Shown in pieces: positions 43,769 through 49,663 of a stretch of 53,690 nt of DNA; the stretch's first letter is position 1; each line of letters starts with the position of its first letter. Under the pieces are notes generated by a model. The model searched no databases. It had not been told where the DNA came from and saw only the letters and a list, made by a program, of their open reading frames with translations. The position numbers and the translations under genes were made by a program. Source of the DNA: Candidatus Mediterraneibacter quadrami (GTDB lineage Bacteria > Bacillota > Clostridia > Lachnospirales > Lachnospiraceae); assembly GCA_019120575.1 (NCBI GenBank), contig DWUU01000021.1, positions 1-53,690 on the forward strand, read 5' to 3'.

Positions 43769-43817
43769 ATAATAAGAAATAACCCATATAAATGATATAA
43801 GAATGGAGAATCTATTC

Positions 43818-46800
43818 ATGAATCCGAAAGAATTACATACTTTAGGAATCGACATCGGTTCCACAACCGTTAAGATTGCGATTCTGGACGAAGAAAACGA
43901 GGTGCTCTTCTCCGACTACGAACGGCATTACGCCAATATCCAGGAGACCCTGTCAGACCTTCTCGGACGCGCCCTCTACAAACTGGGCCCGATCCACGTC
44001 TCCCCGGTCATCACGGGAAGCGGCGGCCTCACCCTGGCAAAGAACCTTGACGTGCCTTTCGTCCAGGAGGTGATCGCCGTGTCCACGGCGCTGCAGGACT
44101 ACGCGCCGCAGACGGACGTGGCCATCGAGCTGGGCGGCGAGGACGCCAAGATCATCTATTTCGAAGGCGGCAACGTGGAGCAGCGTATGAACGGCGTCTG
44201 CGCCGGAGGAACCGGCTCCTTCATCGACCAGATGGCGTCCCTTCTGCAGACGGACGCGTCCGGTCTGAACGAATATGCGAAAAATTATAACGCGCTCTAC
44301 TCCATCGCGGCGCGCTGCGGTGTATTTGCCAAGTCCGACATCCAGCCGCTGATCAACGACGGCGCGGCCAAAGAAGACCTGGCGGCGTCCATCTTCCAGG
44401 CGGTGGTCAACCAGACCATCAGCGGTCTTGCCTGCGGCAAGCCGATCCGCGGACACGTGGCGTTCCTGGGCGGACCGCTCCATTTCCTCTCGGAACTGCG
44501 GGCGGCCTTCATCCGCACCCTGAAGCTGGACGACGAGCACATCATCGCGCCGAACCACTCCCATCTGTTCGCAGCCATCGGTTCCGCGCTGAACTCGAAA
44601 AAAGACACGGTTGTGGCCCTTCGCGAGCTGCAGAACCGTCTGGAAAAGAAAGTGAAAATGGAGATCGAGGTGGAACGTCTCGATCCGCTCTTCGCGACCA
44701 ATGCGGAATACGAGGAATTCATCGCCCGCCACGCGAAACACCAGGTGCCGGTGAAGGATCTGGCCAGCTACCGGGGAAAAGCCTTCCTCGGCATCGACGC
44801 CGGTTCCACAACTACCAAGGCGGCCCTGGTCGGCGAGGACGGAACTCTTCTCTATTCCTTCTACCATAATAACGACGGCGACCCGCTGGGCACGACAATC
44901 AGCGCCATCAAAGAGATCTACGAACAGCTCCCGGAGGACGTGGAGATCGTACACTCCTGCTCCACCGGCTACGGCGAGGCGCTCATCAAGGCCGCGCTCA
45001 TGCTGGACGAAGGCGAGGTGGAGACCATCGCCCACTACTATGCGGCCGCATTTTTCGAGCCGGATGTGGACTGCATCCTGGACATCGGCGGCCAGGATAT
45101 GAAATGCATCAAGATTAAGAACCAGACCGTGGACAGCGTACAGCTCAACGAGGCCTGCTCCTCGGGATGCGGTTCTTTCATCGAGACATTTGCAAAATCC
45201 CTGAACTACAGCGTGGAAGACTTCGCCCACGAGGCGCTCTACGCCCAGAACCCCATCGATCTGGGAACCCGCTGTACCGTGTTCATGAATTCAAAAGTAA
45301 AACAGGCGCAGAAGGAAGGCGCATCCGTTGCGGACATTTCCGCCGGGCTGGCCTACTCCGTCATCAAAAACGCGCTCTTTAAGGTTATAAAGGTGTCAAG
45401 CGCTTCCGAACTCGGAAACCACATTGTCGTACAGGGCGGTACCTTCTACAATAACGCAGTCCTCCGGAGTTTCGAGAAGATCGCGGACTGCGAAGCCATC
45501 CGTCCGGACATCGCCGGCATCATGGGCGCCTTCGGCGCGGCCCTCATCGCCCGCGAGCGGTACACGGAATGTGAAGGCACAACCATGCTCTCCATCGACG
45601 AGATCAGAGACATGGAGTACTCCACGACCATGACCAAATGCCGCGGATGTACGAACACCTGCCGTCTGACCATCAACCATTTCAGCGGCGGCCGCAAGTT
45701 CATCACCGGAAACCGCTGCGAACGGGGGCTGGGCAAAGAGAAGGCAAAGAACACCATGCCGAACCTCTTCGACTATAAGCTGCACCGCTACTTTGATTAC
45801 GAACCGCTCTCCGAAGAGGCGGCATCACGCGGCGAGATCGGAATCCCCCGCGTGCTGAACATGTACGAAAACTACCCGTTCTGGTTTACATTTTTCACAA
45901 AACTCGGCTTCCGGGTGGTGCTCTCCCCGGCTTCCACAAGGAAGATCTACGAGCTGGGCATCGAGTCCATCCCAAGCGAATCCGAGTGTTATCCGGCGAA
46001 GCTGGCCCACGGTCATGTGCAGTGGCTGATCAACAAGGGTATGAAACACATCTTCTACCCGTCCGTTCCCTACGAGCGGAATGAGTTTGAGGAGGCCAAC
46101 AACCACTACAACTGCCCGATCGTCACCTCCTACCCGGAGAACATCAAGAACAACATGGACGCCATCGTAAACGGCGAGGTGGACTTCATCCACCCTTTCC
46201 TCAGCCTGCAGAGCGAGGAGACCATCTCCTACCGCCTGATCGACGAGCTGAGCAAAAAGTTCAGCCTCTCCGACAGTGAGATTCGCTCCGCCGTCCACGC
46301 CGCATGGAACGAGCTGGCAGCCTGCCGCGAAGACATGCGTAAAAAGGGCGAGGAGACGATCCGGTTCCTGAATGAGACCGGCAACCGGGGCATCGTCCTG
46401 GCCGGACGTCCGTATCATATCGACCCGGAAGTCAACCACGGCCTGCCGGAAATGATCACATCCTACAATATCGCCGTGCTGACCGAGGATTCCGTTTCCC
46501 ACCTGCACCAGGTGGAGCGCCCGCTCAACGTCATGGACCAGTGGATGTACCACTCCAGACTGTACGCGGCGGCAAACTATGTCAAGACAACCGAGAACCT
46601 GGATCTCATCCAGCTCAACTCCTTCGGCTGCGGCCTGGACGCCGTGACCACGGACGAGGTGGCGGATATCCTGACCGGTTCCGATAAGATCTACACCACG
46701 CTGAAGATCGACGAAGTCAACAACCTGGGTGCCGCCCGCATCCGCGTGCGCTCCCTGCTGGCCGCGATCCGCGTGCGCGAGCAGAAGAAAGAGGCCCGCA

Positions 46801-48059
46801 CCATCCGTCCGGCATCCATCGAGAAAGTGCCGTTCACAAAAGAGATGCGAAAGACCCACACCATCCTCTGCCCGCAGATGTCGCCCATCCATTTCGAACT
46901 GCTGGAGCCCGCTTTCAAGGCTGCCGGCTACAAGATCGAAGTGCTGCCAAACGACAACCGTCAGGCTGTGGACATGGGCCTCAAATACGTAAACAACGAC
47001 GCCTGCTATCCGTCCCTCATCGTCGTCGGACAGATCATGGACGCCATCCTTTCCGGACAGTACGACACCGACCACCTGGCCGTGATCATCAGCCAGACCG
47101 GCGGCGGCTGCCGTGCGTCCAACTACATTGGCTTCATCCGCCGCGCACTGAAGAAGGCCGGATACGAACATATCCCGGTCATCTCCATCAACTTAAGCGG
47201 CCTGGAGGCCAACCCGGGATTCAAGATCACTCTCCCGCTGGCGGTGCGCATCGCATACGCCGCGGTATTCGGCGACATCTTCATGAAATGCGTGTACCGG
47301 ATGCGCCCCTACGAGGCGGTTCCCGGCACGACCAACGCCGTACACCGCAAATGGGTCAGCGTCGTTCAGAAGTTCGTATCCGAGGGCTATCCGTCCCGCC
47401 GGAAATTCAGACAGCTCTGCCGCGACATCATCTCGGATTTCGACAACATCGAGATCCTGGATATCAAAAAACCGCGCGTGGGTGTGGTCGGCGAGATCCT
47501 GGTCAAATTCCTGCCGGCTGCCAACAACCACCTGGTAGACCTGCTGGAGGCGGAGGGAGCCGAAGCGGTCGTTCCAGACCTCATCGACTTCATGCAGTAC
47601 TGCTTCTACAACCAGAACTTCAAAGTATCCCACCTGGGATTCAGGAAGTCCAAGGCGCTGCTCGGCAACCTGGGCATCAAAGCCGTAGAATGGCTGCGCG
47701 GACCGGCAAGCAGAGCATTTGCCGAAAGTAAACACTTCACCCCGCCTACACATATCGAAGACCTGGCAAAGATGGCGTCCGAGATCGTATCCATCGGAAA
47801 CCAGACAGGCGAAGGATGGTTCCTGACCGGCGAAATGCTGGAGCTCATCCACAGCGGCGCAGGCAACATCGTGTGTACACAGCCGTTCGCCTGCCTGCCG
47901 AACCATGTGGTAGGAAAGGGAGTTATCAAAGAACTTCGAAGAAGACATCCCGAGTCCAACATCGTCGCCATCGACTTCGACCCGGGCGCAAGCGAAGTAA
48001 ACCAGCTGAACAGGATCAAACTGATGCTGTCGACGGCCTTTAAGAATTTGGAGAAATAA
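43818..48059 (+). CDS. Giant 2-hydroxyacyl-CoA dehydratase-type protein: two activator ATPase domains fused to a dehydratase-like (double-cubane type) module
   Basis: 1413 residues from the ATG at 43818 (GGAG nine bases upstream). Domain order: ASKHA activator ATPase 1 (residues about 9-260; [30 protein letters not shown]); ATPase 2 (about 322-590; [32 protein letters not shown]). Each has the two Cys positions that in HgdC hold a shared [4Fe-4S] cluster. A Cys cluster follows near 606 (CRGCTNTCR), then DUF2229/HgdB-like sequence to the end ([32 protein letters not shown]). Related to the E. coli YjiL/YjiM and double-cubane cluster protein families, where ATP hydrolysis drives low-potential electron transfer. 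Substrate unknown. Confidence 0.9.
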
Positions 48060-48074
48060 TAGTCCATCATAGAG

Positions 48075-48107
48075 AATCCTCTGCCGGAATACTGGCAGGG
48101 GATTTTT
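48075..48107 (+). terminator. Terminator of the giant dehydratase-like gene
   Basis: AATCCTCTGCC (48076-48086) pairs with GGCAGGGGATT (one GU), followed by TTTTATAT. It lies about 15 bases past the stop. Confidence 0.9.
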
Positions 48108-48124
48108 ATATCAGATAATCATAC

Positions 48125-48307
48125 GAAAACCGGGGAGGGCTGCATCGCATCGCCCGCTCCACTCTACCTCATCCCCTGGAATCCCTGTAACGCAAAATAA
48201 AATGCCTGTCCATTGGAACAGACATTTTATTTTACTAACAGGGAGAACCAGGTGTATTCGGAACGTTCCGCTTGCATGCACTGCTCACGCAGCCCTCCCC
48301 GGTTTTC
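48125..48307. repeat. Palindromic element A (183 bp, nested inverted repeats)
   Basis: Ends in a perfect 19-bp inverted repeat: GAAAACCGGGGAGGGCTGC (48125-48143) and its complement (48289-48307). Inside are CCTGG...CCAGG, TCCCTGT...ACAGGGA and, at the centre, AAAATAAAATG...CATTTTATTTT around CTGTCCATTGGAACAG. The whole would fold as one long branched hairpin on either strand. No coding frame. It shares its length and centre with element B, so it is probably a small mobile repeat or a structured RNA. Confidence 0.7.
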
Positions 48308-48416
48308 TTATATCTTCCCAATTTAAACATTCTCTCTGCCCGCATTTCCGGAAGATCACTCTGTTTTAGAGATAGTGTACCGATGTGGTACTTTACCGCA
48401 ATGAGGGATAAACGCA

Positions 48417-48600
48417 GTTCCGGCGCAGCGTACCATATTACAAAACTTCAAGTGGGAGCGTTCCGAAAAGCATTTGTTCTGGATGTTAGCTGTCAGCAAA
48501 TGGAGTCCCATTGGACGAACATTTGGTGTCAGCGTTACATCCATTCAAATCTTTGAGGTAAAGCGGAACGGTTTTGTAATAAGGTATGCTGCGCCGGAAC
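48417..48600. repeat. Palindromic element B (184 bp, nested inverted repeats)
   Basis: 30-base terminal arms at 48417-48446 and 48571-48600 match at 28 of 30 positions (begins GTTCCGGCGCAGC). Nested inside are CGTTCCG/CGGAACG, GGATGT/ACATCC and a central CAAATG...CATTTG around GTCCCATTGGAC. The centre resembles that of element A. 109 bp with no visible gene separates the two. Confidence 0.7.
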
Positions 48601-48625
48601 GGCCCTTTATCTCTCTGACAAATCT

Positions 48626-48871
48626 TTATTCTTCAATCCGGTACAGGAACAGGCACCCGCCGAACAGCCCCAGGATCAGCCCGGCATATCCGCCCGCGCA
48701 GATCAGGTCTGCAAGGGCTGAGACAAGGCTGGTTCCCGTGATGGTGCACACGAGCATTCCCGCAAGGACGCCTGCAACGGTCCATCCGACGATCATGATC
48801 GGAAGGAACAGCGCCACCGCATGGCTTCCGTCTGTATATTTTCTGATGAAATTCCATAATCCTCTGTACAT
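48626..48871 (-). CDS. Small two-helix membrane protein
   Basis: 81 residues from the ATG at 48871, with GGGGG upstream. After a short basic start (YRGLWNFIRKYTDG) come two hydrophobic helices, about residues 18-45 (ALFLPIMIVGWTVAGVLAGML) and 53-76 (GGYAGLILGLFGGCLFLY), ending RIEE. No known family recognised. A longer in-frame version to 48946 lacks a ribosome site. Confidence 0.65.
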   Translation of the reverse strand: MYRGLWNFIRKYTDGSHAVALFLPIMIVGWTVAGVLAGMLVCTITGTSLVSALADLICAGGYAGLILGLFGGCLFLYRIEE

Positions 48872-48997
48872 TTTACATGCCCCCGTCTGTTGTAAATCTT
48901 CACTTACTACAGGTTTATTGTATACAGAGGATGTAAAAAATATCACAGGATATATGTAAAATCTAAGTAAAATCGAGAGTTAAAGACATGCTATCCC

Positions 48998-49663
48998 TTA
49001 CACGGACCCCAGGATCATATCCGCTGCCGCACCCGGTGTATCCGCAATTCTTTCCGCCCCGGACGCTTCCAGTTCTTCCCGGCTCCCGTATCCGTAGAGC
49101 ACGCCGATGCTGTGAAGTCCGCACTTTTTCGCGCCGGTGATATCGTGGCTGCGGTCGCCGACCATGACCGTATATTTCCGCTCTTCCTTCGGGATCCCGC
49201 ATGTTTCAAGCACATATTCGATGACTTCTTCTTTGACCGTGCGTGTACCGTCCATGCAGGCGCCGCCGATCAAATCGAAATATTTTGCAAAATCAAAATG
49301 ATCCGCTATAAGCTTTGCATACTGCTCCGGCTTGGACGTGGCCATCAGGATCCGGATACCGGCTTTTTGCAACGTATCGAGCATCTCCGGCACACCGTCA
49401 TAGACCCGGTTTTCAAAAATCCCTTTTTCGCCGTAATACTCCCGGTACAGCGACACCATCCGGCGCCCCTCCTCTTCGGAGAGGCTGAAGACTTTCCGGA
49501 ACTGCTCTTTCAGCGGCGGTCCGATAAAAGAGCGCAGCACCGCCTCTTCCGGTTCGGCAAGACCGTATTTTTTCACCGCGTAGCGGATCGCATTCATGAT
49601 ACCTGCGCCGGAATCTGTGATCGTTCCGTCCAGGTCAAAGAGAACTGTCTTATATCTGATCAT
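48998..49663 (-). CDS. HAD hydrolase, phosphoglycolate phosphatase-like
   Basis: 221 residues. Motif I TVLFDLDGTITDSGAGI, motif II ILMATSKPEQYAKLI, Lys in VKEEVIEYVLE and motif III YTVMVGDRSHDITGAKKCG. The helical cap and FIGPPLKEQFRK segment match the Gph/PgmB-like group. Probably a sugar- or nucleotide-phosphate phosphatase. It starts 9 bases after greA, so the two are cotranscribed. Confidence 0.92.
   Translation of the reverse strand: MIRYKTVLFDLDGTITDSGAGIMNAIRYAVKKYGLAEPEEAVLRSFIGPPLKEQFRKVFSLSEEEGRRMVSLYREYYGEKGIFENRVYDGVPEMLDTLQKAGIRILMATSKPEQYAKLIADHFDFAKYFDLIGGACMDGTRTVKEEVIEYVLETCGIPKEERKYTVMVGDRSHDITGAKKCGLHSIGVLYGYGSREELEASGAERIADTPGAAADMILGSV

Follow-up and report, generated by a model that had tools for sequence, protein, structure and literature searches.

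Within the window, as the whole analysed stretch of 53,690 nucleotides from Candidatus Mediterraneibacter quadrami (contig DWUU01000021.1) is termed here, two long palindromes lie between two convergent open reading frames (ORFs). The left ORF, of 1418 aa (43803..48059), we take to be 2-hydroxyacyl-CoA dehydratase activase-like; the right one encodes 106 aa. An earlier note on this DNA had described palindromes of 183 and 184 bp separated by 109 bp, and these positions, lengths and gap agree with the window sequence, as do the 19-bp perfect terminal arms of the left hairpin (A). The terminal inverted arms of the right hairpin (B) are equally real, being 91% complementary across 33 nt. The locus is made up as follows, R1 denoting a covariance model built from the five cores of this genome.

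43803..48059, plus strand: left convergent neighbour, 1418-aa ORF (from the ORF list)
about 48068..48616, unstranded: whole two-hairpin unit, ends approximate; inverted between the same flanks in genomes G212 and G252
about 48073 and about 48613: unit breakpoints near AGAGA and TCTCT, respectively, read by eye from inverted relatives
48079..48107, unstranded: terminator-like stem-loop adjoining A, by eye from sequence
48122..48310, minus strand: hairpin A, an A-type monomer (folding; arm covariation between orthologues)
48125-48307, minus strand, and 48417-48600, plus strand: palindromes A and B as first noted
48146..48277, minus strand: conserved core of A, A-type clade (R1, 125 bits, high by construction because A is among the five training sequences of R1)
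48311..48394, unstranded: spacer across which the 5' ends of A and B face each other; in some relatives other genes lie between the hairpins near here
48395..48620, plus strand: hairpin B, a B-type monomer (folding; 83% match to the copy on contig C4 of the same genome)
48447..48579, plus strand: conserved core of B, B-type clade (R1, 137 bits, likewise high by construction, as B is also a training sequence)
48626..48946, minus strand: right convergent neighbour, 106-aa ORF, hydrophobic by eye (ORF list; flank common to relatives)

Each palindrome folds as one long hairpin, as had been proposed, and none of 200 shuffles equalled either fold. Folded alone, A (48122-48310, plus strand) reaches -86.5 kcal/mol (z -9.4) and B (48395-48620) -111.1 kcal/mol (z -11.0). 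The minus strand of A folds better still (-105.6 for 48121-48311), and in all five copies of the genome the core folds better on its assigned strand than on the complement. The ORFs that cross the hairpins (94 and 161 aa) have TTG starts, and a coding role for them seems unlikely. A promoter scan of the unit stayed at chance level, and no terminator was called in it; the stem-loop at 48079..48107 was likewise not called by a consensus terminator scan. This stem-loop has flipped along with the unit in G212 (inverted copy in locus L195), and palindromes resembling it are present at the element-less loci L199, L206 and L208.

The two hairpins are homologous, so the idea of two related elements holds, and A and B are halves of one unit and not separate insertions. 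The central motifs that they were said to share are present, and the cause is this homology read in opposite orientation, A on the minus and B on the plus strand. Motif order is common to the five copies of the genome and spacing is nearly fixed, with 26 nt from CGTTCCG to GTTAG and 23 nt from GCGTTACA to GAGGT in five of five.

The supposition that the palindromes belong to a multi-copy, MITE-like family was borne out as to copy number, and presence and orientation vary among relatives. Sequence and covariance-model searches recovered copies both in this genome and in its relatives; R1 finds exactly five in the genome itself, namely A, B and copies on contigs C4, C51 and C60, and a match elsewhere in the genome has an E value of 1e-42. 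In Lachnospiraceae, R1 detected copies in at least 3 of 200 genomes including this one (5 in this genome, 4 in G155 and 9 in G034), the 13 copies in two other genera having E values of 1e-9 to 0.003, and a search of the genus found the element in at least 43 of 58 genomes; both searches used stricter filters, and these counts are lower bounds. A rerun of three genomes with a looser filter gave 66, 56 and 21 copies, the 66 belonging to the complete genome G217, where many copies have equal scores. A pattern scan of public genomes, which favours pattern-like sequences, returned at least 119 stretches, and 46 of the 80 matches listed were named Mediterraneibacter. At twelve loci found by pattern, the model had no match (L041, L047, L066, L071, L078, L088, L096, L119, L132, L142, L158 and L159); these, some of them outside Lachnospiraceae and including both viral contigs, are treated as chance matches or as too diverged. 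The element belongs to Lachnospiraceae and chiefly to Mediterraneibacter. The outcomes that the earlier note had named as speaking against a family, namely no copies elsewhere together with no covariation, or arms matching only a known gene family, did not occur.

Identity with a known RNA family was considered and dropped: for window positions 47500-49500, Rfam gave no family at gathering score and only two sub-threshold miRNA matches (mir-934, 23.7 of 80 bits; MIR2934, 21.8 of 100). No published description was found in literature searches or in the available text of PMC11109978 and PMC8632094. In the distant genus represented by G034, a further minus-then-plus pair lies near a contig end (L023; G034:C122, 67-173 and 321-433), and three loci (L035, L037 and L038) have one more hairpin, within the core or adjoining it, with a common sequence of its own (GGTGTCCACTGGACACC and similar); this is perhaps another small element.

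An intact monomer is about 300 bp long and forms an end-to-end hairpin. Its terminal inverted repeats are short (GTGTTTGTT...AACAAACAC and variants, also AAATTTGTAKTTGTT), and its ends are asymmetric, with ATGAGT.. at the 5' end and ..CACGAATTT at the 3' end. Fast-evolving paired arms lie outside a conserved core of about 130 nt, which is made up of stems, a capped tip and, where GGAGCGTTCCGA faces GAGGTARAGCGG, a large internal loop. At least two genomes contain units of about 671 bp with the ends GTGTTTGTT/AACAAACAC. An alignment of nine units shows each hairpin to be a monomer bounded by ends of its own, the two being joined head to head, 5' to 5'. Single monomers of about 300 bp are found at L058, L067 and L100 and, by eye, on contig C51 of the genome studied here. 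Rare end variants differ in their distribution: the G252 copies C38, C27, C37 and C56 have the same rare variant at both outer ends (for example AATTCGGGTTTGTT in C38), as though one end had been matched to the other, and the outer ends of C41, C60 and many G217 copies lack a matching rare variant.

The close pairs examined are head to head. In G217, 62 of 66 cores fall into 31 minus-then-plus pairs and four are unpaired; four close neighbours that belong to different units stand in other arrangements. Among the model-searched loci, all 28 close pairs are minus-then-plus and 68 cores are single, and single copies make up 21 of 21 in G237 and three of five in the genome studied here. A-type and B-type cores form separate clades in Mediterraneibacter (95/95 with 20 rows, 100/99 with 24 rows). 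The two core types of G217 group together, and three pairs are B/B-like instead of A/B (L097, L126 and L127).

The compensatory change that had been suggested for a structured RNA is strong. It was measured in an alignment of 125 matches (120 distinct) from 97 sources searched, with a 30-pair structure; cells changed on both sides numbered 708, compared with 220±19 in shuffles that ignore the relatedness of copies, and all six slides gave far lower counts. Paired cells made up 86.2%, compared with 65.3% in the shuffles and 37-52% in the six slides, though the alignment was fitted to a model already holding a structure and its pair counts lean towards that structure. When the set is reduced to 37 representatives that are less than 85% identical, two or more Watson-Crick types are seen in 25 of 30 pairs. 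A mismatch prevails at one pair of helix 1 (82 of 119).

Pairing is also biased towards one strand. The ratio of G·U to A·C is 12:1, 42:9 and 54:5 in helices 1-2, 3 and 5, respectively, and 185:69 in the outer arms of 114 copies. Helix 4, which is 48.7% paired, lacks an excess of G·U (40:55), probably owing to its poor alignment; in the 37 representatives helix 4 stands at 16:20 and the pairs outside it at 25:3. Because G·U outnumbers A·C in the arms and in the well-aligned core helices, pairing seems to be selected on one strand, that is, in a folded single strand of defined polarity, RNA or ssDNA alike. Part of the G·U excess could come from a strand-biased mutation process.

The arms of hairpin A can be followed at the same locus in five genomes. 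There, 90 of 95 cells are Watson-Crick pairs, with 3 G·U, 1 A·C and 1 other; two or more Watson-Crick types occur in 9 of 19 pairs, and one pair is found as GC, AT, TA and CG. Between the window and G205, the core of A is identical at 144 of 145 positions and the arms at 33 of 38, with pairing kept. From these figures the arms would appear to evolve fast but jointly, through either pairing selection or copying between arms. The idea that the arms were copied from the host flank wherever the element lies was abandoned, because different copies within G155 have arms in common, as do copies within the 671-bp family, and old arms diverge in step.

Orthologous sites differ in whether the element is present and in its orientation. 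Window positions 47700-49300 were partly matched in 57 of 58 genus genomes, among the rows listed mostly at the activase-gene end, and 20 orthologous loci were compared, 16 of them inspected as sequence, five of these without the middle. G205, G208 and G228 have the same arrangement as the window, and the A-spacer-B unit is inverted between the same flanks in G212 and G252. In G233, long inverted ends surround about 700 bp. In G224, a B copy adjoins the activase gene and is followed by about 5.8 kb of other genes and then by A and B; in G223, a B copy is accompanied by about 7 kb of other genes, with a hairpin on one side and a second not found on the other. The model had no match at twelve of the 20 loci. 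One of the loci compared (L197, in G237) holds a degenerate B fragment and then other genes; L199, L206, L207 and L208 are short, and inspection by eye showed no more than a palindrome in them; other unmatched loci hold other DNA. A further locus is represented by two records in opposite orientation (L053 and L101).

Genes lie between or beside hairpins at several loci. About 700 bp separate two B-type hairpins at L209 (the same as L039), where the cargo ORF lacks a Pfam match but has, by eye, a tail of the sortase type. At L190, the cargo is flanked by A and an additional B copy, next to the A-B pair instead of within it, and comprises an ABC transporter, a DUF5626 protein, an HTH_3 regulator and a secreted-looking ORF that has no Pfam match and presumably resembles lactococcin-972. 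At L191, a response regulator, a histidine kinase and an ABC transporter stand beside a single hairpin. The records L097, L127 and L306 are one locus with three cargo sets between the same hairpins: Rce1-like and DUF2000 proteins in L127, an Rce1-like match below the cut-off in L097, and DUF2000 with ParE and RelB in L306. In G217, two pairs enclose DDE_3 transposases, which we take to be IS630-type, and one a Transposase_31 protein. Two different DDE_3 genes sit at the same CTAG site in the spacers of two copies of one unit (L282 and L283); they look like nested insertions, since the same unit without them reads through CTAG (L284) and the two proteins differ.

Units are enriched between convergent ORFs, with 38 of 72 units in such gaps compared with 43 of 436 other gaps; the count covers the model-searched loci plus 21 typed loci, rests on ORF calls in place of annotation, is partly redundant and omits 44 units without a flanking ORF in reach. 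By eye, many units start directly 3' of a stop codon. Position and structure together suggest that the hairpins may act as terminators. At L296 in G217, a 12-bp palindrome (ATGTCAAGAGGG...CCCTCTTGACAT) carries a unit in its tip, which hints that units insert into terminator hairpins. The check for target-site duplications proposed with the MITE-like label found no clear direct duplication by eye at 13 G217 loci (L283 has AAATT on both sides, in AT-rich sequence). The 14 possible empty-site alignments comprise L210, which carries one terminal repeat, and otherwise diverged intergenic DNA; a search for duplications across joined flanks returned only diverged or solo-end sites, too diverged for base-exact reading. 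Membership of MITEs in the strict sense is thus not established, as neither a clear target-site duplication nor a cognate transposase was found in these searches.

Two candidates for a mobilising enzyme were rejected. The first is the DDE_3 transposase, as an enzyme belonging to the element: it occupies a CTAG site of the spacer, and the same unit lacks it elsewhere. The second, a Y1 protein of about 280 aa regarded as an obligatory RAYT-type partner, shows no association with the element. Y1 proteins of similar length occur in 38 of 58 genus genomes; the element is present in 28 of these 38 and in 15 of the 20 without one (p=1), and none of 26 stretches around Y1 genes contains it. The single Y1_Tnp protein of the genome studied here (G000:C47:7402-7728; L237:1601-2419) is encoded between what we take to be aminopeptidase-like and glycyl-tRNA synthetase-like ORFs, and no repeat partner was found. 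Terminal-repeat searches of three genomes found no coding element bounded by two family ends. There are two stray exact terminal repeats in G217; at L302 (G217:C1:2440300-2444300), a stray end lies near an IS110-type transposase and ORFs with HTH_21 and PIN7 domains, with no partner end seen.

On balance, A and B are probably two monomers of one non-autonomous, REPIN-like mobile palindromic element whose structured core is unusually large and which is moved in trans. The enzyme acting on it would recognise the folded single strand and would move or copy the element into terminator-type palindromes 3' of genes. The inserted hairpin may then be retained because it ends or protects convergent transcripts. 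Cargo was probably captured by recombination around neighbouring genes, involving either two copies or a single unit that had opened at its spacer. It is possible, though doubtful, that the family represents a new class of mobile element, in which a large folded single strand, of RNA or ssDNA, takes the place of a duplex end in mobility, and in which the hairpins are brackets that can be flipped and exchanged around gene cassettes. If so, these brackets would serve cassettes (peptide/ABC, ParE-RelB, Rce1-like, DUF2000) between convergent genes; the whole would be a cassette system of integron-like kind that has no visible recombinase itself and is driven by another enzyme.

Several alternative readings account for part of these data. 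Terminal inverted repeats, near-identical dispersed copies, the DDE_3 transposases enclosed by two G217 units and the frequent sharing of a variant between both ends of G252 copies would all suit an ordinary DDE-type MITE, whose hairpins are terminal repeats around a lost internal transposase and whose covariation stems from symmetry or gene conversion between arms. We regard this as unlikely: the DDE_3 genes look nested, no target-site duplication is clear, and symmetry alone gives no one-strand bias of G·U over A·C. That same bias, together with the asymmetric monomer ends and the lack of a clear target-site duplication, would also fit a bacterial counterpart of SINEs, in which the monomer is transcribed, folded and reverse-transcribed into DNA; the unit has no promoter signal, however, and head-to-head dimers are unexpected as retro-products, which makes this reading very improbable.

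A host-serving structured RNA or bidirectional terminator family that spreads by recombination between copies, without being mobile itself, would explain the position between convergent genes, the strand-biased pairing with its conserved internal loops and the in-place retention with compensation. It is nevertheless improbable, as presence and absence at orthologous sites, the expansion to 66 copies, the common terminal repeats and the flips fit mobility better; moreover, 15 of 58 genus genomes have no match, which disfavours an essential role. Chance, or independent palindromes at one locus, has a negligible probability given the match within the genome at an E value of 1e-42 and the 13 copies in two other genera. 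The two-monomer element offers a compact, well-bounded case in which orthologous loci reveal selection on one-strand structure, compensation in place, inversion and gene capture together. It raises the question of which enzyme moves long folded palindromes that lack a gene of their own, and it would be a little-noticed source of gene-content differences among common gut bacteria.

Among known systems, the attC sites of integrons are single-strand hairpins next to movable genes, a likeness to the hairpins described here. However, attC sites form same-orientation arrays and the present hairpins inverted pairs, and inspection by eye did not reveal the boxes of attC in their usual arrangement. MITEs of bacteria, Correia, ERIC and RUP among them, are described in the available text of one source as small, non-coding, intergenic elements with terminal inverted repeats and stem-loop transcripts (PMC10969869). 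The family shares the small non-coding intergenic format and the terminal inverted repeats, but differs from that description in that no clear target-site duplication or parent transposon was found, the core covaries and genes lie between paired copies. A catalogue of mobile/repeat sequence candidates (MRSC) counts 250 multi-copy structured motifs that possibly act as DNA or RNA; its main text, which is what this comparison covered, does not contain "ruminococcus", "lachnospir" or "faecalicatena" (PMC11109978), and the present family may match one of the 250. MRSC-65-2, a UYCCGG repeat of diverse phyla, differs from the present family by its description in that main text only (PMC11109978).

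In its workings the family comes nearest to REPINs. As outlined in the available part of their description, these are REP doublets that form hairpins and are associated with RAYT transposases (PMC3116915), and REP units are given as 20-40 bp in the part available of another source (PMC3733652). Relative to these, the monomers here are much longer (about 300 bp), have a large conserved internal-loop core, are frequently single and show no RAYT association; REP size and a RAYT link are thus absent, and the inverted doublet is present. In both systems, as far as that description goes, the inverted doublet is the dispersed unit, is extragenic and non-autonomous, and has hairpins predicted in single-stranded DNA or mRNA (PMC3116915). 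By this analogy, the joined form of A and B resembles the REP doublets of REPINs.
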